A DNA stretch of 44,495 nucleotides from Candidatus Thorarchaeota archaeon. Lineage in GTDB: Archaea > Asgardarchaeota > Thorarchaeia > Thorarchaeales > Thorarchaeaceae. The stretch covers positions 1 through 44,495 of the forward strand of contig JAEORG010000217.1 in NCBI GenBank assembly GCA_016841005.1. Direction: 5' to 3'. Position 1 is the stretch's first letter, and every line of letters starts with the position of its first letter. Of the stretch, positions 29,396 to 44,092 are shown in pieces. The notes under the pieces were generated by a model, which made no database searches, was not told where the DNA came from, and saw nothing but the letters and a program-made list of their open reading frames with translations. A program made the translations under genes and the position numbers.

Positions 29396-29533
29396 ATGTG
29401 CCTAAATTAACATAGACACAGATTCGGACAACTTATAGGAAAACAGTGGTCTATTGTAATGTGGTAATTCTGTTAGGTGGACTTGTGGCATTTCATATCT
29501 GCAGTTACTCAAGTTTGTAGGGTTCGACTGAAG

Positions 29534-32500
29534 ATGAAAAAGAGGAATGGAGAAAATCCATCAGAGAGGGAAATAGTAGAGGAGATAAAAACCAATTGGA
29601 CAGAAATGATTAAGCTTCACAAACAGGCGGTAGAGTCCTACTTGGAAATGAAGAAGGTAAGGGAAACCGCAGGAGAATACAAGAAGCTTGGATATGCTTT
29701 TGCACAGTTTGCAGAAACAGTTGATACTTCAGCTGAATATATTGACCAAACCAGAAATGCTATTGATGCCTTCAGAAAAGCTGCGACTCTCTATAAGCAG
29801 ACAGGCAACAAACAGAAGGAATTGGAATGCATTGGAGAAGCTTTCTTCTTCAGCGGGTCTGTAGTAGGGTCCAATATGGAGCTAAAGGATGTGCTTAGTA
29901 AATCTCATGACCACTTCATTGAATCAAGCGAACTCTGTGCCAAGGAGAATGATCAAGAGGGTCGAGCGCGGACTTTGAGTCGTGCTGCATTGGTTTCATT
30001 CCACCTAGTTCTTCAATCTAAAGACAAAGAAGAGGCTAAACCGATTTGTCAGGAAGGCATAGTCTTTGCAGGAGAATCTTGGGAACTTTCAAAGGATGTT
30101 GGAAATGTTCAATTTCTTGCTGAATCATTGTTTACTGAATTTTGTCTATGTGCGGCTTACATGTTTGTTGCACCTTATAGAGGGGATGAGAATTGGAAGG
30201 AATACAACAAGAAACTCCTATGGAGGTGTGATGAAAGTATAAAAGCTACCGAAGATTGTGACAATCCTCTTTTCATTAGTATGGTTCACCTTGCGGCCGG
30301 TACCATATACTCCTTCTTTGGATTTAATTTCATTAAGCATGAAAGAGAACAGAGAGAATACACTGAGAAGGGGTTTCAGTTATTGGAGAAGGCTGTAATC
30401 TTCGCAAAGAGAGCAAATAATAAAATCTTGATATTAGATTCGCTATGGTGGTTGAACTGGAATGCTCTTAATACTGCAAGATACGAGCACATCCAGAAAC
30501 GAATTTTCGAAGACATCGGGCTTATGGATGAGGCCGGAAGAATATTTGCAGAATCATACACCTTTTGGTTTCATGCTGGAAAAGTTATGCCAGGTTACTC
30601 TTATGCAAATTTGGCTCGGGGGAGTTTATACGCTACTGCTCAGAGGAAGGCTCTTGCTGAGAAAGGAATCGAATATACAATGGAGTCCTTGAAGAAGGGA
30701 GAATCTGGACCAGTAGCTGTTTTGCAATATCAGTCATTAACATGGTCACATTCACTACTAGCTACTTTCGCTGAAACGAAAGAAGAACGGAATCAACATG
30801 CCCAGAAAATGCTTCAATACGCTCGAAGAGCTGAAGAAATCTGTCAGGAATTTGATGGAGATTGGTCTCGAGCTGCAGGTTATTCTTCCACCTATGGAGC
30901 ATACAGGACACTCGCTGATCTTGCAGAAAGCGAGAAAGAAAGAATCAAGAATCTATCAGCTGCAATTGATGCCGCCAGAAAGTACAATCAACATTCAGTG
31001 GAAAGCCGTACCGGTATAATAACAGCTCAAGTGCGGCTAGGGCTTCTCTACGAAGAGCTTGGTATTTTGACGACAAGGATCGAACCGCTTAGAATGGCAA
31101 AGGAAACATTCCTAGAAGTAATCAAGGAGAGTCGTGATAGGGGATATCATTTCTATGAGGCTGCGGGTCACGAATATGCTGCACATATAGAAGATCGACT
31201 TGGCAATCATATTGCTTCTGCTGAACACTACGAAAAGGCTCAAGAGGCTCATACAGAGTCGTTGAGGACCATTGACTTCAAACCTTTGAGAGAGAGAGTA
31301 GAGGAGAAAATAAACTACGCTAGTGCATGGAACATGATTGAGAAGGCTAAGGGCTTTCACAGGATGTCAAATTACCAAAAGGCTAAGGAAAACTATGAGA
31401 ATGCATGCGAAATTCTGAAAGAACTACCTAGCTTTGATTACGAAGCATATTACTTCTCTGCTTGGGCTATGCAGGAAGATGCAGAACAACTCAGTAGGCA
31501 GGAAGAACATGAGGATGCTTTAGAAAGATATGAAGCAACTAGGAAGAGTTTCGATAGCGCGGTAAAATCACTGGAAGAAACATACACTTCTTTGAAAAAG
31601 AGAGATGAGAGAGAAAGAAGCGAGAAACTCAATAAAGTAGCAAACGTGAGAATGAAGTACTGCTCCGGTAGAGCAGATATCGAAAGAGCAAGAATACTTG
31701 GAAAGCAGGGTGAACACCTAGCAGCTGCAGAGAGATTTGCTTCGGCGGCTTCCGAGTTCAAGGATGTTCTTACTCAATTCAAAATCAAAACAGAACGTTT
31801 GGAATTAGAAGCTGTATACAACCTCTGCAGAGCTTGGGAAAGCATGGAGCTTGCAGAGAACTACGATGACGCAGACAAGTTCGCAGAAGCAGCAAGGCTA
31901 TTCACCAAAGCCATCAAGCTTTTCACTGATACCAAACTGAAACTGCTAGCTAAAGGCAACTCAGCCTTTTGTAAGGCTTTAGAACTCGGATGCAATTTTG
32001 ACGAGTCAACTGAAACAGATGATAAAGATTTACTCTATCCAAAGATCAAGACGATGCTACGAAAGGCTGCGTCAGCCTATCGGAAGGGTGGTTACGATGG
32101 CGGAGCTGATTGGGCTCTTGCAACATCGACCTATTTCGATGCGACATGGCACTTGATTAAAACGGATGAGGAGTTGGATATTGACAAAAGGGAGAAACTC
32201 CTAAGAATCGCGACTAAGTATCTGAAGTCAGCGGCTGAACTCTTCAGTAAATCAGGTCACAAGCACAAGGAGAGCGAGGTTCTAGGTCGTATAGACATGA
32301 TCGAAAAGGAAGAGAGTATTCTACTTTTAGCCTTAGATATAATAACAGAACCATCCATCTCTAGAAGTACATTAGGCATTATCGCACCTTCATGTCCTAC
32401 AGAAACCAGCGCCTCTCCAAGTATAGGAGAAGTTCGTCAGTTCACGGAAAGAGCATCACAAGTCAGAATAGAAACGAGTCAGAGAAAATACGAACTCATC

Positions 32501-33358
32501 TATGAGAACCTCCTTGAAGAAAGCGCAAGTATTCAGAGAAAGGAATGCAGAGTTGGCATCGCCCAGATAGGAATTTCCAAGTCAAGCGATATCCTAAATG
32601 AATTCTATGAAGTGAAGGCTGATGGCCTTCTAGGTCTTAGGAAGGATAAAGTCGAAGCTGTAAAATCCAGAGTTATAAGCATGATAGAATTCGCCTACAG
32701 AGAAGGTGTGAACATCCTACTATTCCCTGAAATGACCATCGACCTCAATTACAACGAGATACTTGAAGACATAATCCGCCTGGCAAAGGAATACCGTATG
32801 TACATCATCCCAGGTTCATATCATGACGATGATACAAAACAGAACCTTTGTACGGTTATAGGACCGGAAGGAATCCTTTGGAAACAGGAGAAACACATTC
32901 CAGCCACTATTCTCTATAATGGTGAAAGGTTCACTGAGGAATTAGGAACCAGAACACTCCCGAGGAGAACTTTCATTTGCGACACAGAGTTTGGAAGGAT
33001 TGCAATTGTCATATGTCGGGACTTTCTGGACATGGATCTGAGGGTCGAACTAAAGAACTTTGAACCTCCAGTGGACCTAGTGTTCAATCCAGCCTTCACA
33101 CCAGTTACGGCTGACTTCAAGGCAGCCCATTTTGATGCTCGTAGATCCATCTACGCCTATTGTTTCTTCGCTAACGTTGCGGAATTTGGAGATTCTCTGA
33201 TCTACACACCAGAGAAGGAACGCGTCGAAAGAAGTCTACCACCAAAAGAGGAAGGTCTGATCTACAAGGATGTACAACTCTTTCAGTTGCGTTCAGAACG
33301 TAAGAGGTGGGAAAAGCAGCAGGAGAAGCAAAGGTCGTTTATACAAAGTACAAGATGA
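29534..33358 (+). CDS. Giant TPR-like repeat protein fused to a nitrilase (carbon-nitrogen hydrolase) domain
   Basis: A soluble protein of 1274 residues from ATG 29534 (GTG 29477 would add 19). Residues about 1-960 are all helical with many TPR-like units, for example YQKAKENYENACEILKEL, HEDALERYEATRKSF and FAEAARLFTKAIKLF. A Ser/Thr-rich linker leads to a nitrilase-superfamily domain (about 1003-1245). Its catalytic triad is intact: Glu1066 in LFPEM, Lys1120 in KQEKHIP and Cys1161 in VICRDF, with spacing normal for the family. The domain opens with VGIAQIGIS and contains IIPGSY. There is no signal peptide. Nitrilase domains hydrolyse or transfer amides and nitriles; here the repeats probably bind a partner or substrate. 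The actual reaction is unknown. Confidence 0.87.
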   Translation: MKKRNGENPSEREIVEEIKTNWTEMIKLHKQAVESYLEMKKVRETAGEYKKLGYAFAQFAETVDTSAEYIDQTRNAIDAFRKAATLYKQTGNKQKELECIGEAFFFSGSVVGSNMELKDVLSKSHDHFIESSELCAKENDQEGRARTLSRAALVSFHLVLQSKDKEEAKPICQEGIVFAGESWELSKDVGNVQFLAESLFTEFCLCAAYMFVAPYRGDENWKEYNKKLLWRCDESIKATEDCDNPLFISMVHLAAGTIYSFFGFNFIKHEREQREYTEKGFQLLEKAVIFAKRANNKILILDSLWWLNWNALNTARYEHIQKRIFEDIGLMDEAGRIFAESYTFWFHAGKVMPGYSYANLARGSLYATAQRKALAEKGIEYTMESLKKGESGPVAVLQYQSLTWSHSLLATFAETKEERNQHAQKMLQYARRAEEICQEFDGDWSRAAGYSSTYGAYRTLADLAESEKERIKNLSAAIDAARKYNQHSVESRTGIITAQVRLGLLYEELGILTTRIEPLRMAKETFLEVIKESRDRGYHFYEAAGHEYAAHIEDRLGNHIASAEHYEKAQEAHTESLRTIDFKPLRERVEEKINYASAWNMIEKAKGFHRMSNYQKAKENYENACEILKELPSFDYEAYYFSAWAMQEDAEQLSRQEEHEDALERYEATRKSFDSAVKSLEETYTSLKKRDERERSEKLNKVANVRMKYCSGRADIERARILGKQGEHLAAAERFASAASEFKDVLTQFKIKTERLELEAVYNLCRAWESMELAENYDDADKFAEAARLFTKAIKLFTDTKLKLLAKGNSAFCKALELGCNFDESTETDDKDLLYPKIKTMLRKAASAYRKGGYDGGADWALATSTYFDATWHLIKTDEELDIDKREKLLRIATKYLKSAAELFSKSGHKHKESEVLGRIDMIEKEESILLLALDIITEPSISRSTLGIIAPSCPTETSASPSIGEVRQFTERASQVRIETSQRKYELIYENLLEESASIQRKECRVGIAQIGISKSSDILNEFYEVKADGLLGLRKDKVEAVKSRVISMIEFAYREGVNILLFPEMTIDLNYNEILEDIIRLAKEYRMYIIPGSYHDDDTKQNLCTVIGPEGILWKQEKHIPATILYNGERFTEELGTRTLPRRTFICDTEFGRIAIVICRDFLDMDLRVELKNFEPPVDLVFNPAFTPVTADFKAAHFDARRSIYAYCFFANVAEFGDSLIYTPEKERVERSLPPKEEGLIYKDVQLFQLRSERKRWEKQQEKQRSFIQSTR

Positions 33359-33365
33359 AAGATGC

Positions 33366-33383
33366 AACATGTAATGTTTTTTC
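33366..33383 (+). terminator. Possible short hairpin plus T-run after the TPR-nitrilase gene
   Basis: A 5-bp stem AACAT-GTA-ATGTT is followed directly by four more Ts, 8 bases after the stop codon. The stem is short and the call rests mainly on the T-run and its position. Confidence 0.35.
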
Positions 33384-33419
33384 TACGAAGAATTATATCT
33401 GGGAAGTATACACAATTCT

Positions 33420-33809
33420 ATGAGAGCCATGAGGGATGCAGACAACGAGAGAGAGCAAGGCACATCTAATCCAGATGCATTAGGAGCATTCTACGTTATT
33501 GGTGAAAAACCAAATGAGGTCATTTCAGGGTGGATTGCTCTAGAGGACGGAAAGGATGAATTCTTGGAAACAATTTTTGAAGAGATGGAGTACACTTTAC
33601 AGATAGAAGTCAAAGACCAACACATGTACAACCTCTATTTCGTAGATTCTTCAAAGAAGAATAAATTGACGGAAGTACCCGATCAGGAGTCCTTTGATAA
33701 AATCAAAAAACTCGAGCAGATCAAAGTTATGCTTTTACATAAGGACATTAAAATAACAGATGTAGAAAATCATCCAAGATTCAAAGATTGGCTTGAGGAA
33801 ACAGAATAG
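33420..33809 (+). CDS. Small hypothetical protein downstream of TPR-nitrilase
   Basis: An acidic, soluble 129-residue protein that I do not recognise. After a charged N-terminus it reads as alternating strands and helices: AFYVIGEKPNEVISGWIAL, then an acidic helix with FLETIFEEMEY, then LQIEVKD, MYNLYFVDSS, a helix IKKLEQIKVMLLH and a C-terminal WLEE. The length and pattern suggest one small alpha/beta domain. It lies 61 bases after the TPR-nitrilase gene on the same strand, separated by a weak terminator-like element, so it may or may not share the transcript. ATG 33420 was used; ATG 33429 is also possible. It is convergent with the GNAT gene 9 bases away. Confidence 0.65.
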   Translation: MRAMRDADNEREQGTSNPDALGAFYVIGEKPNEVISGWIALEDGKDEFLETIFEEMEYTLQIEVKDQHMYNLYFVDSSKKNKLTEVPDQESFDKIKKLEQIKVMLLHKDIKITDVENHPRFKDWLEETE

Positions 33810-33818
33810 TTACTAGTT

Positions 33819-34280
33819 CTATAGTCGTTTCATCAAAATTACTGCAGCAGAAGAATCATAATAATACTCAAAGATTCTTCCAGCATTTTCAAAACCAAGA
33901 GATTTGTAGAATCTTAGAGCAGGATGGTTGTCATCATCAACATCCACAAAAATCGCTCTGTGAATATTCTTAATTCCCCAATCAACCATTTTATTCACTA
34001 GAGCAGTTGCGATACCCTTTCTACGATTCTCATCTGAAACAACAAGTAATTCAATCCATAGACGTCCTTCCTCTTCTATACCTATTGCACCCACGCCCAT
34101 TGGTTGATCGGAATCGTTCACTGCCTGAAATGCTATCCATCTTTCTCTGTCAATGAAATTCTGAGCTTCATCAATTGAAACCCATTTCATGACATCATGA
34201 AGACCCAATTCCTGAGCTGTTTTAAGAAGAGTTGAAGCAAATTTCGAACGTTCAATTCGAAATTTGTTCTCTCCTTTCAT
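33819..34280 (-). CDS. GNAT-family N-acetyltransferase
   Basis: A 153-residue acetyl-CoA-dependent acetyltransferase. The acetyl-CoA-binding motif A is LLVVSDENRRKGIATALV (the R-x-x-G-x-A pattern is RKGIAT), following the beta-4 strand GRLWIELLVV. Motif B is near HPALRFYKSLGFENAG, the standard C-terminal mark of the family. The length is normal for a single-domain GNAT. The ribosome site AAGGAG lies 8 bases before the ATG. The substrate cannot be predicted. It begins 20 bases after the stop of the BpsA-like gene on the same strand and could be the last gene of that transcription unit. Acetylation of polyamines is one possible link, but nothing in the sequence shows it. Confidence 0.9.
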   Translation of the reverse strand: MKGENKFRIERSKFASTLLKTAQELGLHDVMKWVSIDEAQNFIDRERWIAFQAVNDSDQPMGVGAIGIEEEGRLWIELLVVSDENRRKGIATALVNKMVDWGIKNIHRAIFVDVDDDNHPALRFYKSLGFENAGRIFEYYYDSSAAVILMKRL

Positions 34281-34300
34281 TTGAAATTCTCCTTTTCTTC

Positions 34301-36256
34301 TTAGAAATCATAGATAATCTGTTCAGCACCTTTGAGATTTTCATCAGCCTGAAGAACTACATCTGTAAGCTCATTTTTCCTAATCGTATACATCACAGAA
34401 GAATATGGTGCAACGTTTAGTTTCACGTCTAAACTGTAATTGACCACTGTGTATTTTCCATAATATCCAGAGGCTTTTTCATTCACTACTATTGTATAGT
34501 GCCATTTTTCCTTTGATTCCTCAAGGACTTCAACTCCCAATTTCTCAAGAAGATATTTTGCCTTGTACCGTTGAGATTTAGTATCTTGGAAATTGATTAA
34601 ACCAATTCCACCGATTCGTAGTAATGACAATCCTCTAGACAAAAACAACGCGAACGCCTCAATGGCAAAGTCAGGGTCTGCAACAAAGAGGTCGAATTCC
34701 TCCTGTAGGATCGGAAGTGATGAACGAAGGTCTACCTGATGGATCCTTATCGATAGATTTTCTTCCTTGGCAATAGTAGATAGGAGCGCACAAGTATATG
34801 GATCAATCTCAAGGACTGTGACACTAATCCCTCTTCTTGCCAGAGATACACTTAGCAGGTCATCATCACCAACAAGTAAGACATTACCAGGTTCATGCCT
34901 TAGAATGTGATTCAATTTCATTATATGAGAACGAGGTGTCAGTGGAGCTTGTCCCAGAGAATAGTCCAAAACTCGTCTTCTTGCCATTAGATATGAAATT
35001 TCATCATACTCAGGATCTTGGGTAGATTCAAGTCGGTTAAACGTATTATACGAGTGAGGATCAGGAGCAGCAATTGCAGTCACAGGATGGATGTATTCTT
35101 TGACATCTTTTATTCTTGTCATCACCTCTTGGTGATCGACTGAGTTTTCTGCAACTGTGCCAAGCACTAGCTTGTACAAGAGTTGTAGACTTGATAGATC
35201 AAAATCAAATAGTAAATTCTTGAATCTAGGACTTGTAATTGTGTCTACTACAGCTAATTTGTTTCCTGGATCAACGACAATGAATACTCCCGGTTGAAGG
35301 GTAACTAAGTCATTCAGTGGAACATCATCTATCAAAGAGTGATAATCTAATTCGAGTGGTTTCCAAAGGTTTGGTGCAATCCTTGTTCCTCGAATAGTTG
35401 GAGGTTTCTTCTCACCTCTCATTATTTTTATTGCCTCATCAACCTCAGAACGCTGACTTGCTTTAACTGCCCTATTTGCACATAACACACACAATCCTAC
35501 CAACATCAATAGAGTAGCAAATAATGACCACCTAGCGATGATCTCGAGTTGGTTGTACTGTAACGCGTAGCTTGAATCGAGAACAACTCCCACTTCATAC
35601 CATGAATAGCTTCCTACAGATGTTGAAACATCAACGTCCCAGGTTTCCATGACGAAATATCCAGTATTAGGATCAAAATAGTAGGTATCATCGATATACA
35701 GTTGAATTGTTCCATCTGGGTCATATTCAGGGTCATCAACAGTTTGGACTATGTTTAACGACTGAACCTCAATAACATCAACGGCTGTTACAGCATCAAT
35801 AAAAACAGTGGTCAAACCATTCACTGTGTAATCATATCCGAGAATGTGAACTGTATCTCCTACATTAAGAGAAGGATCAATTCTGAACCAGAATGTATCA
35901 AAGTTGTAATAACTAGAATAGTCTGCAGGTGCATCAAATGTATCATCCAAGTACGATCTGTTCTCTGGAGATATTGCAAACGTATGAAATGTTGATTCAG
36001 AATAGTATCCTCCTTCTGAATCAGAATAGGAATACTCTCTGCTCATCTCAAAGTCGACTCTCATTTCTGAAACTGCTGTTACATTGTAAACACGAGTGTC
36101 ATACTCCTCTTCTGAGTAATCCTCATAATCTCCAGAACGACCTGTCAATGAATTACTAAATTTAACTGTAAAGTTATCTCCAACTTGGAAAACCATCTCA
36201 GCTCTTACTTCGGAAGGAAGCAGAAACATAGAGCAACCTAATAATACGAGAACCAT
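34301..36256 (-). CDS. Membrane-anchored BpsA-like aminopropyltransferase with acidic exodomain
   Basis: A 651-residue protein. It has a signal peptide (about 1-19), a beta-rich exodomain (20-235) very rich in Asp, Glu and Tyr, and one membrane helix (240-263). A cytoplasmic linker (265-430) leads to a Rossmann aminopropyltransferase/methyltransferase domain. That domain resembles branched-chain polyamine synthase BpsA: QAPLTPRS (436-443), LLVGDDDLLSV with the GDDD motif (463-466), VLEIDPY (Glu483), FVADPDF (Asp527) and LFLSRGLSLL. BpsA adds aminopropyl groups from decarboxylated SAM to spermidine. The DPDF here replaces the usual DPPE-like motif, so activity or substrate may differ. The gene starts 14 bases after speD. 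Known BpsA is soluble and about 350 residues, so this fusion is unusual. Confidence 0.8.
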   Translation of the reverse strand: MVLVLLGCSMFLLPSEVRAEMVFQVGDNFTVKFSNSLTGRSGDYEDYSEEEYDTRVYNVTAVSEMRVDFEMSREYSYSDSEGGYYSESTFHTFAISPENRSYLDDTFDAPADYSSYYNFDTFWFRIDPSLNVGDTVHILGYDYTVNGLTTVFIDAVTAVDVIEVQSLNIVQTVDDPEYDPDGTIQLYIDDTYYFDPNTGYFVMETWDVDVSTSVGSYSWYEVGVVLDSSYALQYNQLEIIARWSLFATLLMLVGLCVLCANRAVKASQRSEVDEAIKIMRGEKKPPTIRGTRIAPNLWKPLELDYHSLIDDVPLNDLVTLQPGVFIVVDPGNKLAVVDTITSPRFKNLLFDFDLSSLQLLYKLVLGTVAENSVDHQEVMTRIKDVKEYIHPVTAIAAPDPHSYNTFNRLESTQDPEYDEISYLMARRRVLDYSLGQAPLTPRSHIMKLNHILRHEPGNVLLVGDDDLLSVSLARRGISVTVLEIDPYTCALLSTIAKEENLSIRIHQVDLRSSLPILQEEFDLFVADPDFAIEAFALFLSRGLSLLRIGGIGLINFQDTKSQRYKAKYLLEKLGVEVLEESKEKWHYTIVVNEKASGYYGKYTVVNYSLDVKLNVAPYSSVMYTIRKNELTDVVLQADENLKGAEQIIYDF

Positions 36257-36270
36257 TACGATACGTTTTC

Positions 36271-36657
36271 TCAGAACAATTCCCCTCTCGGAAGTCTTGT
36301 AATCCTAATCTCTGTATGCTGCACATTGGATATCAAGAAATCAACCAACTCGTCAAGATGTTCTGTAGAACCACAAGTGAAAACATCCACAACAGCCTTT
36401 TCGTATTCAGGCCAAGTATGAACACTAATATGACTCTCAGAAAGTAGAGCAAATGCAGTAGCACCGCCTTTTATGTGAGAATCGCCTATGCCATGATATT
36501 TGTGAACTTGATTGAATTGATAAGACGAAATCTCTAGCTTCGTCATCCTTCCAACTTTGATGACTTGGTCAAGCAATTTCTCCCAATATGAAGCACTATG
36601 ATACTTCCCATCTACCACGCCTGAGAAGTCCATTAAGATAGATATACCAACAACCAT
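36271..36657 (-). CDS. speD: S-adenosylmethionine decarboxylase proenzyme
   Basis: A pyruvoyl enzyme that makes decarboxylated SAM, the aminopropyl donor for polyamine synthesis. It has 128 residues, normal for the prokaryotic type. The self-cleavage site is Glu74-Ser75 in [14 protein letters not shown]; Ser75 becomes the pyruvoyl group. His80 and Cys95 (VDVFTCG) match the catalytic His and Cys, and the Ser-His-Cys spacing (5 and 15) equals that of the Thermotoga enzyme. The ATG at 36657 has no Shine-Dalgarno, so initiation may be leaderless. The stop is 14 bases before the BpsA-like gene, giving a donor-synthesis and transfer pair. The coiled-coil gene at 36713 ends 55 bases upstream on the same strand. 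Confidence 0.96.
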
Positions 36658-36712
36658 TTGTATGCGGAGATAGGATTGAAAGCATATGAATTTGACGAGA
36701 TGTTTTCACCTA

Positions 36713-38380
36713 CTAATGTGAGAGGGTTGCCCCACATCCAGGACAAAACTTTGAGCCAACTCCCGCCATCGCTCCACATTTTGGACACTGCCCACTATAT
36801 TTAGACCATAGACCCTCTAGTTGCTCTTTAGCACCCTCTTCAAGAAGCTGTGTTAATTGCATTTTCGTGAGACCAGAACGAATAGATGTAAGTCCATCTG
36901 AATTAGTGAGCATATTACCATGAAGGCAACAATTATCAAACCTCTCTTTGAAGCCGCGATTCTCCTCTATTAGACTTCCAATAGTTTTGGAGATATATAG
37001 GTCAAAGTCATTATCTAGTGGTCTGTGCCTATCGCTCGTTACAATCCGTTCCACAGGCATGAAACATGGTGTGAAGATGATGTATGAATCATTATCATAA
37101 ATAGCAACGAAGGTATCAATATCCAATCTTGTTAAAGGCGCTAGAGAACGTATACTATCATTCTCAAGATTTAGCGATGTAATAGACAATAGTTTCTGCT
37201 GTAACTCAGTCAATCGCTCTTGAACTATGCGGCGCAATCTTGTAACATGATTACCTACATTTTCTTGTAATTCATCTAACTCTTTGATTTTAATGTCACG
37301 TTCATGCATCAAATCTTCTTTCTGTTTCTCATATTCTGCAGATTGGTCAGACACAGCCCCTTTAATTTCGGCACTCTTCTCTTCTAGCCCAGTCATTGAT
37401 TCATTATAGGTTGATCTAACCCTTTCAGAGGTGGATTTTATACGCTCTAAGACTTCCTTGTAATTTGGTGCGGTTTCTGAAATATAATCAACGAGTTCAT
37501 TGAACTTGGCAATTGCCCCCTCAACATCTTCTCCTTTAGAATGAATTGCAGTTCTGGTTATTCTAATCTGTTCGATCAAGTCTGAGAAGAATTCTTCAAT
37601 ATCAGTAATAGCTCTGGAGAATTCAGCTGTTACGCCGCGCATATGAATTTTATATTTCTCTTTCATATCGAATATCTGGTCACTTGTTTTTGATCCAAGA
37701 GCCTGAACTTGTTGTTGAATACGTTCATCTAATGCAGAAATTCTTCGATCCCACTGTTGCTTCTCTAGAGATATCCTATTTTCCAGCACATTTAGATGTC
37801 CCTGAAGTTTCTCAGTGATCAACTCTCTCAATGACTCAATATTCTGAATCTTAAGAGCTTGAGAATCCCTAAGGTCTTGAAACTCTGAACTTATCTGGAG
37901 TACATCTTGAGAATCGATTGTTTCATCCAAGCGATTAGGAGTGATGTTTAAGTCTCTTTCAACAATATATGACGAAACTGGTCCAAGTATATCGGGATAT
38001 TCAACATGTTTTAGGATTCTAGTTTCAGACTTCCTTTCATTCATCAAAGATGTGATTCTTTCAACAGCATCAGGTATTGCCTCAGCGGTCGATATCTCAG
38101 AACCTAAGATTCTTCGAATTTCAGATAAACGAGTATTTTCATACGTTTCAATTGATTGTGTTCGATTACCAAATGCAGAAAGAAGGATGGAGGTGGTATT
38201 TGAGGTTTGGACAATCCAAAATGGCAATGTGAGTTTGCTTAAAGCTCGAAGGTTGGCTGTTTTTGATTTGTGGCCTTCAGCAATCGCAAGTGCCATCGTA
38301 AGAGATACATCCTCTCCCATCGGAGAAGGACTAGTCGACTTTTTATCATAAATGAACTTGAGCGCAAGAACTCTTACCAT
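36713..38380 (-). CDS. Coiled-coil protein with C-terminal zinc ribbon
   Basis: A 555-residue cytoplasmic protein of unknown function. Residues about 1-130 form a mixed alpha/beta region that I do not recognise (opening MVRVLALKFIYDKK). Residues about 160-400 are long amphipathic helices with heptad character, a probable dimeric coiled coil. A second globular part (about 415-520) follows. The C-terminus is a zinc ribbon with Cys532, Cys535, Cys546 and Cys549 (CPKC and CPGCGATL). There is no signal peptide or membrane segment. It is the first gene of the minus-strand group leading into speD and the BpsA-like gene, with a 55-base gap, so cotranscription is possible but the functional link is unproven. 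Confidence 0.78.
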   Translation of the reverse strand: MVRVLALKFIYDKKSTSPSPMGEDVSLTMALAIAEGHKSKTANLRALSKLTLPFWIVQTSNTTSILLSAFGNRTQSIETYENTRLSEIRRILGSEISTAEAIPDAVERITSLMNERKSETRILKHVEYPDILGPVSSYIVERDLNITPNRLDETIDSQDVLQISSEFQDLRDSQALKIQNIESLRELITEKLQGHLNVLENRISLEKQQWDRRISALDERIQQQVQALGSKTSDQIFDMKEKYKIHMRGVTAEFSRAITDIEEFFSDLIEQIRITRTAIHSKGEDVEGAIAKFNELVDYISETAPNYKEVLERIKSTSERVRSTYNESMTGLEEKSAEIKGAVSDQSAEYEKQKEDLMHERDIKIKELDELQENVGNHVTRLRRIVQERLTELQQKLLSITSLNLENDSIRSLAPLTRLDIDTFVAIYDNDSYIIFTPCFMPVERIVTSDRHRPLDNDFDLYISKTIGSLIEENRGFKERFDNCCLHGNMLTNSDGLTSIRSGLTKMQLTQLLEEGAKEQLEGLWSKYSGQCPKCGAMAGVGSKFCPGCGATLSH

Positions 38381-38412
38381 TTGAAAATCCTCTTAGTGAG
38401 GTTTTAAACTCC

Positions 38413-38621
38413 GTTGGTAATTATGTTTTTCCAGTAGGTCGTGGTGTTTCATAACCATTCAATACAAAATTGTGTGGGCTAGAATTAATAAATAACGGCG
38501 TCTAACCTGTGAGAGCGTTGCAAGGGAGATTGTAGGCAAGAGAACTCTTTGACTCCTGAACTCTTGAAAGGCATAAACAGACCCCAAATGATTTCGTTGC
38601 AACTAAGGAGAGAGATTCATT
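38413..38621 (+). promoter_or_regulatory. Conserved upstream region A of a beta-helix surface gene
   Basis: This region shares blocks in the same order with the region before the second beta-helix gene (41736-41944). The blocks are GTTGGTAA..ATGT.TTTCCAGTA, AATTAATAA.TAA, AGCG..TTGC.AGGGAG and the ribosome site AGGAGAGAG. The distance from the AGGGAG end (38528) to the ATG is 94 bases in both. The AT-rich AATTAATAA block is a candidate TATA region, giving a leader of roughly 100 bases. Confidence 0.6.
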
Positions 38622-41600
38622 ATGCCAAGAAAGAATGGAGTACAGACAATTGTTCTTCTACTTTTGATTATTTTGACCTTTGGAAGCTTGATACATGATT
38701 CTGAAGTTACACCTAATGAAAACGAATATGAGGTCCATGAGTTTGTTATGAGTACTGTGCCCCACGCTCCTATCATCATCGATGGAGATGAGAACTTTAC
38801 CTCAACAGCAACCAATGAAGGATGGTCTGGGAACGGTTCAGTAGGAGATCCATTCATCATAACTAATTATGAGATCGATCTTGACGGAGGATCTGGTAGT
38901 TGCATCAACATTACTAACACACGTTCGAACTTTACAATCAGCAACTGTAATCTTACTGGTGCCAGTACATCTATAGGAGCGGGAATTTACCTTAACAATG
39001 TCAGTTATGGAAGCGTAAGAAATACTAGATCAAATTTGAACTACTACGGAATCTCTCTTCAAGATTCAAGTCATATTCTGATATTCAATAACACCATTAC
39101 TGGAAATAGTGCTAGAGGCATCAATTTGAACAATGCAGATTCTAATACAATAACTGATAATATTTGTACAGGAGGTAGTTATGGCATTTACCTCCTTAAC
39201 TCTGATTCCAACATCATTAGTAGAAACCTTAGCAATAGCAACGGGGTAGGCATGCATCTATCAAACTCAGTTTCTAACAACATTGATTATAACACTTGTA
39301 ATCAGAACTCAAACATAGGTATCAGAGTGGAAAACCATTCCGACGAAAACAATTTGACTAATAATATTTGCAACGATAATGGTCTCCGTGGTATCTTGCT
39401 AGATATGGTCTCATATGTGAATATCATCAATAACACATGTAATGATAATTATTATGGACTCGACATTGATGGATACTTCATCCAGATAATCAACAATACT
39501 ATGATGAATAATTTCTTCAGTGGAATTTATGGAGCATGCGGTGATAGCCTGATTCAGCTCAATCGAATTGATGGAGGAAGTGTATGGACATATATGGGAA
39601 TTGGGTTGATGTACAGTAGCTATACGACAATAACACGGAATGAAATTACTACATGCGGTTATGGTATCAGTATTTCTTATACAACAAATTTAATCATTTC
39701 TCAAAATCAAATCGTAGATGAGATTGAAATTGGAATTGAGATGTATAATGACGCGGACTACAATACAATCGTTCTAAATGATATCTCAGTTTATCACGAT
39801 ACATCTTCGATGGAGTTCAGTGGTATTTCGCTAGATAGTTCTACAACGGATAATAATGTGACGATGAATTCCATAAGAAATTATCCCGAAGCTTATCCGG
39901 ATTATTACACTATAACCGATAATAGTAATTATGGGAATATAATCGATAAAAATTGGTATGAAGACTATGACGGTGAGGATTTGGCAGGTGATGGTTATGG
40001 AGATAGTCCTTATCCCATCCAAGGAACAGCTAGTAATTCAGATTCTCATCCGCTAATGTATCTACCCCATGCACCAATATGGACAGAATCTCCTTCTGAC
40101 CAAGTTCTGGACTACTGGAGTCAACCATTCTACTATGATCTGAATGCCACTGCTCCCACATCTATAACTTGGGCGATAAACGATACATCACAGTTTACAA
40201 TTGACAGTAGTGGTATTATACAATCAATAACGAATATACCAGTTGGCTTGTATGGCATTAGAGTCAAAGTCACAAACTTCTATGGTATCTCTATAAATGC
40301 CTCATTTCAATTGGTCATACAGGAAATCACTCCACCTGAGTGGATTGTTGGTCCAATGAATATAACGGTAAATTATGGTGAAATTCTTGATTACGGATTA
40401 ATTGCTACAGATGAATCAGGCATCGAGGAATGGGCAATCAATGAAACAATAGACTTTCAACTTGTAGCAACACAGATGAATGTAACAGGATATCAAAATG
40501 GTTGGAAATTGCTTCAAATAATAAATGTAAGCACTCTGGTTGATGATGAATATCCGCTTAATCTTACAGTTATTGACCGCTATGGAAATGCATTAACTGC
40601 AATCTTCACTATTACAATTTCATCTCAGGAGCAGGATATCACCCCACCCCTATGGACGCTAACTCCGACTAATCAGATTCTTGAGTACAATGAATCGCTT
40701 GAATATTATATCAGCGCATGTGATCCATCCGGAATCTGGAATTGGATTATCAATGATACATCTCATTTCAGTATAACACCAACCTATTACCTTGCGGGTA
40801 GCACTGCATCAATCATCAATAAGACGACATTAGGACCCGGATTCTATCCATTGAACCTGACTGTTCTTGATAATTATGGTAACAAACTCTCTAGCATCTT
40901 TACTATCACAATAAATCCCCCCTTACAAGACATAATACCCCCTGAATGGATTGTAAGTCCCACAGATCAAATCCTTCTCTACGGGCAGCCATTGGAGGAA
41001 CAACTCGCAGCTTGGGATGAGAGTGGTATTGATTATTGGGTTCTAAACGACACTATACATTTCTTAATTGATGAGAACAATGTCTTAAGGAATAATACAT
41101 TCCTACAACCAGGAGTTTACATTCTCAATGTTTCTGTCTACGACACATCTGGAAACACTATCTCAAAGGTAATCACGATTACAGTATCTCCGCAGGAGCT
41201 TGATATGACAAATCCGATTTGGATAGTCGCGCCTGCAGATGAAGTATTAGAATATGGAGAATCCTTTATTCAACAGCTTGGGGCATGGGACGAATCCGGA
41301 ATTCACCATTGGTGGATTAATGACACGGAATATTTTACCATGGAGGATGGAGGAATCCTAAGGAATGCAACCGTACTAGCTCCCGGTTCTTACTGTATTC
41401 TGGTTAAAGCATTCGATCCCTCTGATAACTTCTGTTCTGCAACTGCTATAGTAACAATCCACGAACCTGAGGTAGTACCTACAATCACTATAACAACAAC
41501 AGTCACTATCATTGAAACTACAACTATCACGATTATTCAAACACCTACAGATTTGCCAAGTCCTAACGAAGGGATGAATCCCGTTATGGCACTCTTCTTA

Positions 41601-41666
41601 GGTACTGGATTAGGAGGCACAATAGGCATCATAATAATTATCGTTCTGCTCAAGAAAAAATCGTAG
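38622..41666 (+). CDS. Beta-helix (NosD-like) and Ig-like repeat surface protein
   Basis: A 1014-residue extracellular protein. A signal peptide (about 1-25) is followed by an IDGDENF/GWSGNGSVGDPFII entry motif and a right-handed parallel beta-helix (about residues 85-450) with PbH1 units of some 22-24 residues, rich in Asn. The NosD-type cap GDGYGDSPYPI closes the helix. Five Ig/cadherin-like repeats follow (40069-41460), then a Thr/Ile-rich stalk (TITTTVTIIETTT) and one membrane helix with KKKS. Asn-X-Ser/Thr sequons are frequent. The ribosome site AGGAGAGAG supports the ATG. It is probably a glycan-binding or structural surface protein. The protein at 41945 is a paralogue with fewer Ig-like repeats. 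Confidence 0.87.
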   Translation: MPRKNGVQTIVLLLLIILTFGSLIHDSEVTPNENEYEVHEFVMSTVPHAPIIIDGDENFTSTATNEGWSGNGSVGDPFIITNYEIDLDGGSGSCINITNTRSNFTISNCNLTGASTSIGAGIYLNNVSYGSVRNTRSNLNYYGISLQDSSHILIFNNTITGNSARGINLNNADSNTITDNICTGGSYGIYLLNSDSNIISRNLSNSNGVGMHLSNSVSNNIDYNTCNQNSNIGIRVENHSDENNLTNNICNDNGLRGILLDMVSYVNIINNTCNDNYYGLDIDGYFIQIINNTMMNNFFSGIYGACGDSLIQLNRIDGGSVWTYMGIGLMYSSYTTITRNEITTCGYGISISYTTNLIISQNQIVDEIEIGIEMYNDADYNTIVLNDISVYHDTSSMEFSGISLDSSTTDNNVTMNSIRNYPEAYPDYYTITDNSNYGNIIDKNWYEDYDGEDLAGDGYGDSPYPIQGTASNSDSHPLMYLPHAPIWTESPSDQVLDYWSQPFYYDLNATAPTSITWAINDTSQFTIDSSGIIQSITNIPVGLYGIRVKVTNFYGISINASFQLVIQEITPPEWIVGPMNITVNYGEILDYGLIATDESGIEEWAINETIDFQLVATQMNVTGYQNGWKLLQIINVSTLVDDEYPLNLTVIDRYGNALTAIFTITISSQEQDITPPLWTLTPTNQILEYNESLEYYISACDPSGIWNWIINDTSHFSITPTYYLAGSTASIINKTTLGPGFYPLNLTVLDNYGNKLSSIFTITINPPLQDIIPPEWIVSPTDQILLYGQPLEEQLAAWDESGIDYWVLNDTIHFLIDENNVLRNNTFLQPGVYILNVSVYDTSGNTISKVITITVSPQELDMTNPIWIVAPADEVLEYGESFIQQLGAWDESGIHHWWINDTEYFTMEDGGILRNATVLAPGSYCILVKAFDPSDNFCSATAIVTIHEPEVVPTITITTTVTIIETTTITIIQTPTDLPSPNEGMNPVMALFLGTGLGGTIGIIIIIVLLKKKS
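40069..41460 (+). repeat. Five Ig/cadherin-like protein repeats
   Basis: Five units of about 90 residues. Each opens with W(I/T)-x-P-x-x-x-x-x-x-Y-G/N-x-x and carries a central W-x-(I/L)-N-(D/E)-T motif preceded, in units 2 to 5, by D(E/P)SGI. Units 4 and 5 are the most alike. Each unit ends with a strand such as ITITVSPQE. The second beta-helix protein carries about two related units. The repetition is at protein level, with diverged codons. Confidence 0.8.
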
Positions 41667-41735
41667 GTATAGATCTAGAACATAGGTTAGTCTGCTACTC
41701 TTTGATATCCACAACACTTTGGGGATTATGACGCA

Positions 41736-41944
41736 GTTGGTAAGAATGTGTTTCCAGTACGTTTCATGTTGTGGTAGAAAAATGAATAATAACTAATTTG
41801 CTCAAATTAATAAGTAAGTGGGGACAATATTAACAGCGTGTTGCGAGGGAGAAAAATTTTTACAAGTAAAACATAGGTTTCTGAATTTTATTTTTGCATG
41901 GGTATACTACGAGGCATTCATCGCAGCGTAGGAGAGAGCTATTA
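41736..41944 (+). promoter_or_regulatory. Conserved upstream region B of the second beta-helix surface gene
   Basis: The partner of region A at 38413-38621. The shared blocks keep the same order and almost the same spacing: the 116 bases from GTTGGTAA to GGGAG have equal length in both, with a one-base shift inside. The conserved AGGAGAGAG lies just before ATG 41945 and confirms that start over the in-frame ATG at 41894. Confidence 0.6.
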
Positions 41945-44092
41945 ATGCAAAGATTGAATAAAACACATTTAGCTATTACAATGTGTTTTCTCATTTTGTT
42001 TGTTTTAGTTATACCACTTAGAATAGAAACGGACGATAGAAACAATATCGAAACAGAGCAGATAAAAAAACAACCGGATTTTGAATACTCAGGTAGTACT
42101 CCTCATGCTACAATAGATATTCTGAGTGATGATGATTTCGTTACTCAAGCATGGCCGGGAGCAGGTATAGAAGGAAACCCCTATCTCATTGAGAATTTAA
42201 ATATCACTGGAGGCTCAGACGATCCATGTATATCAATTAGCGATACTCGCGCATTCTTCAAAATCAAGAATTGTACATTGATAGGTCCAAACAACGATCC
42301 GTGTATTCAACTAGACAATGCAACAAACGGTGAAATTGTTGATTGTGAATTCATTGACTCTTGGATGGCTATAGGTGCATTTACCTCAGCCGATATCAAT
42401 GTCACCAATAATTGGTTTAACAACACCTTCAATGGAATCGCCCTAAGGGGACCTAGAATGATCATTAAGAACAATCTAATGGAAGGAACAGGGCAATCTA
42501 GAATTGATCTAAATGACGCTACCAATTCGACTATCTTCAACAACACCCTCCTTGAGATGGCGAATGGTTATGGTATTGATGTTGATGACTCAGACAATGT
42601 AATGGTAACAAATAACACATGTGATGGCATCCCAATCGCTTTTTGGTGTCATGGTACATCTAAAAACTGTGTTTTTGCTAACAATTCAGCATATGATTGT
42701 CGTCTCTATGGATTTAGAGAAGAAGCTGATTGGACCTATATCTTGCACAATAATATCACACTAACAAGTAAAGAGGGAATATTTCTTGGTGGAGATAGGT
42801 GTACTATTGCGGGCAACTTTATCTCCCAGACCAGTGATGGTATCTACACCTATGGACTCCATGAAACAATTGAGAACAATACCTTCTACATGAACAAGAG
42901 GGGTCTGGTAGTTAATGTCACAGTTACTGATGTATCAATAATTGGGAATATTTTCGACAGCAATACAGTGAATGCGGTAAACAATAATACACCTGCTTTC
43001 TTTGGATCCAATTATTGGTCAGACTATTTGGGAACAGACGCTAATTCAGATGGTTTGGGTGATACTCCATACCAAATACCAGGAAATGTAGGAGCTCAGG
43101 ATGCGCACCCACTTATGACTCCATCAACACCAAGATATGCGACTTCATGGATAGATGTTCCATCATTTCAACATGCAGAGAAGGGTGAAAGTTTCCATTA
43201 CCAAATGAACTGTACCGCGCCTGCACCAATAGAGTGGTGGCTTACAGGCTCGTATTCTGATTCCTTCTCAATAAATACAAATGGTTTGATAACAAATGCT
43301 TCTGTTTGGGAAAACTATCCATACCATTGGAGCCTGACTGTTTGGGGTCGAAACATTTACAGCTACCTCATATCAGCAACTTTTGTTGTGAATCAGAGTG
43401 ATACCATTGCCCCCATGTGGGATCCGTTGCCAGTAGATCAAATACACGAATATAACACGTGGGTGAATTCGTTTAAGTATAATCTAAACGCAACTGATGC
43501 TGTACAAATTAGCACCTATTGGGTCAATGATACAACTAATTTTGAAATAGACAGTACAGGGAAATTGGAAAGCATTGCTATACTTGAACTTGGGCATGTA
43601 TATTGGCTTGAAGTGAGCGTCAACGATACTTCTAACAATATCCGTTCTGCAAGCTTCAGTATTACTGTAGTGGACACAATTCCCCCTGAGATTCAAGGCC
43701 CACAAGACCAAATGTTCGACGAGGGTGTGGGTGGACTACTAGGATTGCAATGGAATGTCTTCGATATTTCACTAAATAGTTACACACTATTACTGAATGG
43801 TTCAGAAATAGATTCAGGGACATTCGAAATGGAGAGCGACACTGTTGATTATGAAATAGATCTAAGTCTTTATACTGTTGGTGTCTACAATTACACGTTG
43901 ATAGTAGAAGATAGGGCAGGTCATATTGCAAGTGATACAGTATTGATTACAATCAATCCATTTCCAACTGGTCCTACTGATACAACCAATATAACTCAAC
44001 CACCGATGCCTGTTGAACTCATTGTGATTGTAGTAATCATAGGTTTAGTTGCAGTCATGGCAATTGTATTTGTTATGAAAAGGAAATCTTAG
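41945..44092 (+). CDS. Second beta-helix (NosD-like) surface protein
   Basis: A 715-residue paralogue of the protein at 38622. It has a signal peptide (MQRLNKTHLAITMCFLILF), an entry motif (WPGAGIEGNPYLIENLNI), a parallel beta-helix with PbH1 units (about residues 70-375), and the NosD cap NYWSDYLG followed by GLGDTPYQIPG. About two Ig-like units (WVNDTTNF in one) and a further beta domain follow, then one membrane helix (about 690-710) with the tail KRKS. The Thr-rich stalk is short. The start was moved to 41945 because of the AGGAGAGAG ribosome site. Tandem position, shared upstream sequence and shared domains point to a local gene duplication. Function is probably surface binding or structure. 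Confidence 0.87.
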   Translation: MQRLNKTHLAITMCFLILFVLVIPLRIETDDRNNIETEQIKKQPDFEYSGSTPHATIDILSDDDFVTQAWPGAGIEGNPYLIENLNITGGSDDPCISISDTRAFFKIKNCTLIGPNNDPCIQLDNATNGEIVDCEFIDSWMAIGAFTSADINVTNNWFNNTFNGIALRGPRMIIKNNLMEGTGQSRIDLNDATNSTIFNNTLLEMANGYGIDVDDSDNVMVTNNTCDGIPIAFWCHGTSKNCVFANNSAYDCRLYGFREEADWTYILHNNITLTSKEGIFLGGDRCTIAGNFISQTSDGIYTYGLHETIENNTFYMNKRGLVVNVTVTDVSIIGNIFDSNTVNAVNNNTPAFFGSNYWSDYLGTDANSDGLGDTPYQIPGNVGAQDAHPLMTPSTPRYATSWIDVPSFQHAEKGESFHYQMNCTAPAPIEWWLTGSYSDSFSINTNGLITNASVWENYPYHWSLTVWGRNIYSYLISATFVVNQSDTIAPMWDPLPVDQIHEYNTWVNSFKYNLNATDAVQISTYWVNDTTNFEIDSTGKLESIAILELGHVYWLEVSVNDTSNNIRSASFSITVVDTIPPEIQGPQDQMFDEGVGGLLGLQWNVFDISLNSYTLLLNGSEIDSGTFEMESDTVDYEIDLSLYTVGVYNYTLIVEDRAGHIASDTVLITINPFPTGPTDTTNITQPPMPVELIVIVVIIGLVAVMAIVFVMKRKS

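Follow-up and report, generated by a model that had tools for sequence, protein, structure and literature searches.

In the 44,495-nucleotide contig JAEORG010000217.1 of a Candidatus Thorarchaeota archaeon (GenBank assembly GCA_016841005.1; this whole stretch is the window below), a gene for the S-adenosylmethionine decarboxylase SpeD is followed on the same strand by a gene for a membrane-anchored BpsA-family protein, here called BpsA-M, and by a GNAT acetyltransferase gene. This BpsA-M operon is a real, conserved and rare three-gene cassette. The whole is best explained, with a probability that we put at roughly 0.55, if BpsA-M is a membrane-tethered aminopropyltransferase that depends on decarboxylated S-adenosylmethionine (dcSAM) and works in an envelope-linked cassette. 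SpeD would make dcSAM in the cytoplasm, the BpsA_C domain at the inner face would hold its aminopropyl group via a GDDD motif, the group would be relayed through a C-terminal carboxylate (perhaps Asp650), as in BpsA, and the acceptor amine would be activated by Asp527 with Glu/Gln557, Tyr587 and Tyr618; the downstream GNAT probably acetylates the product, and the outer beta-barrel would most likely bind a lipid or other envelope ligand and so couple the enzyme to conditions at the cell surface. From gene order, domain make-up, conserved residues, predicted folds and co-occurrence, all directly observed, we infer the activity, acceptor, product, acetylation, ligand and any trans-membrane regulation of BpsA-M.

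Catalytic domain and conservation of the cassette

By its profile match, BpsA-M is a member of PF01861: residues 457–575 match BpsA_C at 2.8e-18 (66.5 bits, gathering score 27), generic methyltransferase Pfam models reach 0.0042 or worse, and the 651-residue protein gives no row for the canonical spermidine synthase model PF01564 at E 1. In addition, BpsA structures ranked first in the structural search with the BpsA-M model, the alignment beginning at model residue 410–414 and extending to residue 345 of the Thermococcus kodakarensis enzyme (Tk-BpsA), in which an N-terminal domain (residues 1–104) stands where BpsA-M has a middle region without family assignment. BpsA-M shares with the N4-bis(aminopropyl)spermidine synthases BpsA of T. 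kodakarensis (5xnc/5xnf/5xnh) and Thermus thermophilus (6j27) the catalytic fold, GDDD and PF01861, together with counterparts of Asp225, Tyr290 and mostly Tyr316, the association with SpeD, and an [IL]-Tyr-Asp C-terminus as in Tk-BpsA.

The residue roles in Tk-BpsA were taken from PMC12979288 and followed in an alignment of 26 of the 33 family proteins (the window protein and 25 others; seven near-copies or partial sequences were dropped). GDDD, with the two dcSAM-holding Asp, is invariant (26/26), as are Asp527, the counterpart of Tk Asp225, and Tyr587, the counterpart of Tyr290 at a low-confidence alignment position; Tyr618, paired by eye with Tyr316, is Tyr in 22 members and Phe in four, and position 557, which corresponds with low alignment confidence to Glu259, is Glu in 23 and Gln in three. 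Around Asp527, all members carry D527, D529 and F530, and residue 528 is Pro in 17 and Ser in nine. At the C-terminal IYDF, Y649 and D650 are present in 26/26 and the later acids are mostly lost. There is good support for a catalytic part that would work like BpsA. BpsA-M differs from BpsA, however, by its membrane anchor and exodomain, by D[PS]DF in place of DPPE, by a tail with mostly a single Asp and by its separate long-stem clade; given the replacement of DPPE, it is better kept apart from BpsA proper.

The first-pass annotation, which had been made from the window's letters, correctly described the BpsA-like C-terminal domain with its motifs GDDD (463–466), VLEIDPY, DPDF (527–530) and LFLSRG, and the domain fits BpsA better than it fits an ordinary methyltransferase. 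It seems improbable that this domain is an ordinary S-adenosylmethionine (SAM) methyltransferase (e.g., an amino-methyltransferase like mad2 or METTL5) that drifted beside speD: the PADLOC model mad2 scores 40.7 bits against 66.5 for BpsA_C, BpsA structures come first, speD is adjacent, and GDDD tracks SpeD in other Asgard BpsA-type proteins (22/22 with SpeD versus 0/6 without).

The SpeD of the cassette matches PF02675 at 2.1e-23 (Pfam) and narrowly passes the TIGR03330 equivalog cut-off of NCBIfam (77.5 bits vs 75.65), and the pyruvoyl-site residues Ser75, His80 and Cys95 had been rightly recognised before (ESH at 74, HTW at 80, TCG at 94). According to PMC10407285 (Fig. 8), a Pro separates S-adenosylmethionine decarboxylase from the SpeD-derived arginine decarboxylase; the Pro of HTWPE is present in the window SpeD, but the cassette SpeDs carry an insertion where others have a P-x-G turn. 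Note that a short insertion before one strand is common to the cassette SpeDs (window, L001–L004 and L099) and absent from the other six aligned SpeDs.

A GNAT relative lies directly downstream of BpsA-M in 10/10 loci (window, L001–L009), and speD, detected by phmmer, lies directly upstream in all six Asgard loci that reach far enough (window, L001–L004, and G009 in L099). For L005, less than 200 bases upstream of BpsA-M are available, and the sole SpeD match of its genome is on another contig beside a different gene. The speD pairing of the first-pass annotation was therefore confirmed, and its linkage is kept in the Asgard relatives, but the conserved GNAT had been overlooked. GNAT is the more constant cassette partner, because it is downstream in 10/10 loci and speD was not found near the cyanobacterial BpsA-M. 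In the window, 14 bases separate speD from BpsA-M and 20 bases separate BpsA-M from the GNAT, which matches PF00583 with 62.2 bits (gathering score 20.7) and stays below the cut-offs of the spermidine/spermine N-acetyltransferase equivalogs NF053587 (PaiA; 28.1 vs 250) and NF011709 (19.2 vs 218).

Of the 7,988 candidates scored in the protein search, 34 matched at E 1e-5, and these comprise 30 family members (some partial) and four proteins that by length are ordinary BpsA; profile searching added two full-length members and one distant protein. The full architecture, from exodomain to C-terminus, is kept in 25 further homologues with 34–50% identity. Among the named sources are Thorarchaeota (P0001, at 95% identity to the window protein), Odinarchaeota, Hodarchaeales and the cyanobacteria Nodosilinea and Leptolyngbya. 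BpsA-M is nevertheless rare, with 6/227 genomes of the Asgard phylum and 1/386 sampled genomes of the cyanobacterial phylum. A genome-contig scan with the single BpsA-M protein returned 20 pattern matches and no relative, but the alignment query did find relatives. The catalytic-domain tree (26 family members, 27 chosen locus proteins, three database proteins and Tk-BpsA; midpoint root, long branches) places all 26 BpsA-M members together (support 100/99), with a long stem of 1.92 changes per site leading to them. Within it, nine cyanobacterial-group rows nest beside P0014 (named Odinarchaeota) among archaeal-type rows, and the tree suggests that BpsA-M was transferred to cyanobacteria.

Membrane anchor and predicted outer barrel

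The signal peptide, exodomain and single membrane helix of the first-pass annotation are borne out by hydropathy and by the structural model (helix 236–279). Its further proposal, in which external polyamines bind to the acidic exodomain and synthesis is regulated by it, is quite improbable. In its favour, the exodomain of the window protein has a net charge of −33 over 216 residues, the eight closest rows (P0004–P0013) lie at −23 to −36, and at −15 per 100 residues the window exodomain is more acidic than four other presumed secreted open reading frames (ORFs) of the window (−6 to −10). However, those ORFs are acidic as well, and the charge varies across the family, ranging from −36 to −12 in the remaining rows outside the cyanobacterial group (four of them at −12 to −14) and from −22 to −8 in the nine cyanobacterial-group rows (six of them, P0019–P0024, at −8 to −12). 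What is conserved is the fold, together with the aromatic positions, the invariant positions including many aromatic or structural residues, and the predicted fold resembles lipid-binding or envelope-stress barrels (LmcA, RseB/MucB). Of the earlier interpretation, the BpsA-like domain and the SpeD pairing stand and the polyamine-binding exodomain is not supported.

LmcA (7n3v/7shw) and RseB/MucB also place a beta-barrel-type fold outside the membrane, and the LmcA abstract mentions two cavities and a possible lipid-binding function. In contrast to BpsA-M, these entries are not fused to an enzyme, and they share with its exodomain only ~10% identity at a root-mean-square deviation above 4 Å. 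The modelled exodomain would most likely bind a lipid or other envelope ligand; any sensing role would be our inference, with lipid or envelope sensing better supported than polyamine sensing.

Other aminopropyltransferase-like domains have been placed on membrane proteins. In the available part of PMC11237479, membrane-fused spermidine-synthase-like proteins occur in phage shock protein (PSP)/CesT-Tir operons with a suggested envelope link, and that of PMC12803844 describes fungal membrane-aminopropyltransferase-like fusions. As far as these parts go, both resemble BpsA-M in carrying such a domain on a membrane protein, with polyamine gene company in the PSP case, but theirs is a spermine/spermidine-synthase-like domain on a seven-transmembrane or other membrane part, and BpsA-M combines BpsA_C, a single helix and a barrel. 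No PspA or CesT/Tir neighbour was found among the eight window proteins scanned (29477–44092). No BpsA-SpeD fusion or membrane BpsA is described in titles or opening abstracts among the matches listed, which in three cases were 20 of 93, 20 of 291 and 15 of 148, in a search that most subscription journals lie outside, and the word BpsA is absent from the main text of PMC10407285, PMC11107197 and PMC12803844 in the portions available.

A weakly related exodomain with a predicted helix was also seen in the Asgard loci L093–L097, in proteins of ~480–590 residues as called, with a GNAT-like C-terminal end in the three tested that gave a match. These exodomain-helix-GNAT proteins differ from BpsA-M in having no BpsA domain, and the exodomain profile alone refinds only the G092 exodomain among them. 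Four of the five adjoin a protein of 301–394 residues, of which the L095 copy has no Pfam match.

Spermidine supply in the hosts and in other Asgards

Deoxyhypusine synthase and a ureohydrolase are present in all six Asgard hosts, each of which has one SpeD match, and in all but one of them BpsA-M is the sole PF01861 protein. No canonical SpeE was recognised in the six, G002, G004 and G005 being without a PF01564 match in a genome search whose first pass was not exhaustive (the G001 match appeared in one pass and not in another). The PF01564 matches of G001 and G003 were rejected as SpeE: these 275–276-residue proteins pass the Pfam cut-off over half of the model but score far below the NCBIfam speE cut-offs; that of G003 matches 8vyd (a SAM-dependent methyltransferase of the UPF0020 family) at 4.5e-73 versus 4.3e-5 for the best spermidine synthase, and that of G009 is KsgA. 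Likewise, nspC gave no match in the six hosts (above cut-off in 1/227 Asgard genomes), nor did the pyruvoyl arginine decarboxylase model PF01862. Since the Asgard hosts have deoxyhypusine synthase and one SpeD, and no canonical SpeE or nspC was found in them, BpsA-M is most simply taken either to supply their spermidine or to act on it; in five of the six, where it is the only aminopropyltransferase recognised, its product is probably spermidine or a derivative of spermidine. Note that the L051 (1072–1899) and L052 (1366–2196) proteins belong to an archaeal methyltransferase family near 8vyd, UPF0020, and illustrate a risk of SpeE mis-annotation in Asgards.

The same host data bear on a catalytically silent BpsA-like domain, which would sense dcSAM or methylthioadenosine (MTA) and signal to or from the exodomain. 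The changed DPPE, the shortened acidic carrier tail and the window's Gln at the Glu259 position would suit such a sensor, but it is very unlikely, since GDDD, Asp527 and Tyr587 are invariant in 26/26 and no other aminopropyltransferase was found for the single SpeD in five of the six Asgard hosts.

Several points weigh against BpsA-M as a dcSAM-dependent, envelope-linked aminopropyltransferase. As regards the catalytic domain, the Foldseek lead of BpsA over methyltransferases is modest (5.2e-9 vs 1.9e-7), the DPP[E/D/Y] motif is replaced by D[PS]DF in 26/26, the window protein itself has Gln at the Glu259 position, and of the acidic C-terminal cluster of Tk-BpsA most members keep a single, invariant Asp, the tail lying in a low-confidence part of the model. 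The Tyr-Asp tail is, moreover, not universal in BpsA: Tk has LYDDEES and 2qm3 IYNDEES, but wild-type T. thermophilus has LQDE, the LYDDEES of 6j28 being that of a C9 mutein. Given the long stem in the tree, the substrate of BpsA-M may differ. For the fungal precedent, the available part of PMC12803844 reports that the expressed domain of a Pyricularia membrane/aminopropyltransferase-like fusion gave no spermidine or spermine, a result for which its authors allow expression problems. The lipid ligand, for its part, comes from the predicted fold only. As regards the hosts, G005 also has a soluble BpsA, the L051 and L052 methyltransferases exceed the Pfam PF01564 cut-off (35.4 and 29.8 vs 22.9), and the genomes are mostly metagenome-assembled, so that absences may reflect incompleteness. 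Finally, three cyanobacterial genomes encode SpeD and Spermine_synth in one open frame (429–440 residues) elsewhere than BpsA-M, have no speD found near BpsA-M and lack a deoxyhypusine synthase match (0/3); spermidine supply is therefore not the shared function. Cyanobacterial BpsA-M must do something else, e.g., extend spermidine or modify another amine, and a single function for all BpsA-M members more likely lies beyond spermidine supply.

Instead of a free polyamine, the acceptor could be an amine that is bound to the membrane or exposed at the surface, on a lipid headgroup, a lipoprotein or a peptide, and that is aminopropylated and then acetylated by the GNAT, with the exodomain presenting or sensing the substrate. 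We regard this as possible but doubtful. It accords with the conserved membrane tether and lipid-binding-type barrel, with the occurrence of BpsA-M in cyanobacteria that already have SpeD-SpeE, with the long stem and altered DPPE motif, and with the available part of PMC11237479, which raises 'aminopropylation of other substrates' for PSP-linked polyamine genes. However, the spermidine-contacting acceptor-side residues of Tk-BpsA are largely kept, and the catalytic domain is predicted in the cytoplasm and the barrel outside, so that a substrate at the surface would need to get through the membrane.

The link between BpsA and SpeD extends beyond the cassette. SpeD occurs in 89/227 Asgard genomes, and by coordinates SpeD and BpsA share one open frame of ~350–510 residues in 38/227 and lie within 5 kb in 22 more. 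Four of the 38 frames were read (L102 2050–3492, L103 1425–2849, L104 1484–2878, L105 1632–3146), with both domains confirmed by Pfam in one (L102). Like BpsA-M, these proteins link a BpsA-type domain with SpeD, and most of their genomes have no strong match to SpeE, since PF01564 reached 2.9e-16 or better in only three of the 38; they differ by a DPPYT motif and, in the four read, by having no exodomain. Because 38/227 genomes have such frames and 35 of these have no strong spermidine synthase match, the data suggest a different enzyme family as the source of spermidine for hypusine, or of spermidine derivatives, in many close relatives of the eukaryotic host lineage. This is relevant to how eukaryotic polyamine metabolism arose.

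In other Asgard BpsA-type proteins from 28 genomes (24 stand-alone, four joined to SpeD), drawn from 22 of 69 BpsA genomes with SpeD and six of 24 without, GDDD is found in 22/22 with SpeD and GDSD, with Ser at the Asp159 position, in 6/6 without. It should be kept in mind that these genomes are related and thus not 28 independent events, that they are part of 93, and that SpeD may seem absent where a metagenome assembly is incomplete. According to this split, GDDD goes with dcSAM supply, and BpsA-M has GDDD throughout. The GDSD proteins (L074, L081, L084, L085, L087 and L088) are perhaps ordinary methyltransferases. A further Asgard BpsA variant (L067, L069 and L083) has DSSHC for DPPE, and the genomes concerned carry speD, speE and bpsA near one another. 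Outside Asgards, in 19 loci of Streptomyces and relatives (among L012–L038), a BpsA-like gene with DPPYT lies ~1 kb from a speD-like gene (SASHLSIHTWPE) on the other strand.

Polyamine synthesis is usually regarded as cytosolic. With its conserved barrel on the outside, an enzyme of the BpsA type would place it under envelope control, in a test case made of a single protein. As a tentative proposal to which we give rather long odds, BpsA-family enzymes would have replaced the conventional spermidine synthase in these Asgards, and BpsA-M, under an envelope (probably lipid) receptor, would act as a transmembrane switch within one protein, converting a surface signal into local polyamine synthesis and acetylation, or into aminopropylation of a membrane component.

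Features of the locus

The coordinates and motifs of the first-pass annotation were right; speD and the long ORF both lie on the minus strand. The features are listed below.

Table 1. Features of the BpsA-M cassette and its upstream neighbour in the window
Feature	Position	Strand	Remarks
speD	36271..36657	−	128 aa, pyruvoyl S-adenosylmethionine decarboxylase family; Ser75 codon 36433–36435
BpsA-M	34301..36256	−	651 aa, membrane-anchored BpsA-family protein
Signal peptide, residues 1–20	36197..36256	−	Hydropathy peak
Exodomain, residues 21–235	35552..36196	−	All-beta barrel, LmcA/RseB-like (predicted)
Membrane helix, ~residues 236–258	35483..35551	−	Hydropathy peak at 239; model helix 236–279
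Middle domain, ~residues 280–413	35018..35419	−	No Pfam match; occupies the place of the soluble BpsA N-terminal domain
Cytoplasmic BpsA_C-type aminopropyltransferase domain (predicted), residues 414–651	34304..35017	−	
GDDD motif, residues 463–466	34859..34870	−	Tk-BpsA Asp159/Asp160 = 465/466
DPDF, residues 527–530	34667..34678	−	DPPE variant; Asp527 = Tk Asp225
IYDF C-terminus, residues 648–651	34304..34315	−	Possible counterpart of the Tk-BpsA LYDDEES carrier tail
GNAT acetyltransferase, 153 residues	33819..34280	−	Third cassette gene; PF00583 7.3e-17
Coiled-coil protein with C-terminal zinc ribbon	36713..38380	−	Upstream of speD; possible extra cassette member

The in-frame codons 5′ of the listed BpsA-M ATG read RKRIV, and the true start, with the signal peptide, may lie slightly upstream of that ATG. 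A defence role was considered and rejected, since PADLOC matched BpsA-M only through its resemblance to mad2 and the 555-residue neighbour only weakly, to the ZorA coiled coil. A homologue of the coiled-coil/zinc-ribbon gene also lies upstream of speD in G009 (L099 1602–2999), and this gene is possibly a further cassette member in close relatives. Elsewhere in the window, positions 29477–33358 hold an ORF of 1293 residues whose C-terminal domain is of the carbon-nitrogen hydrolase family and whose long N-terminal part gave weak matches only.
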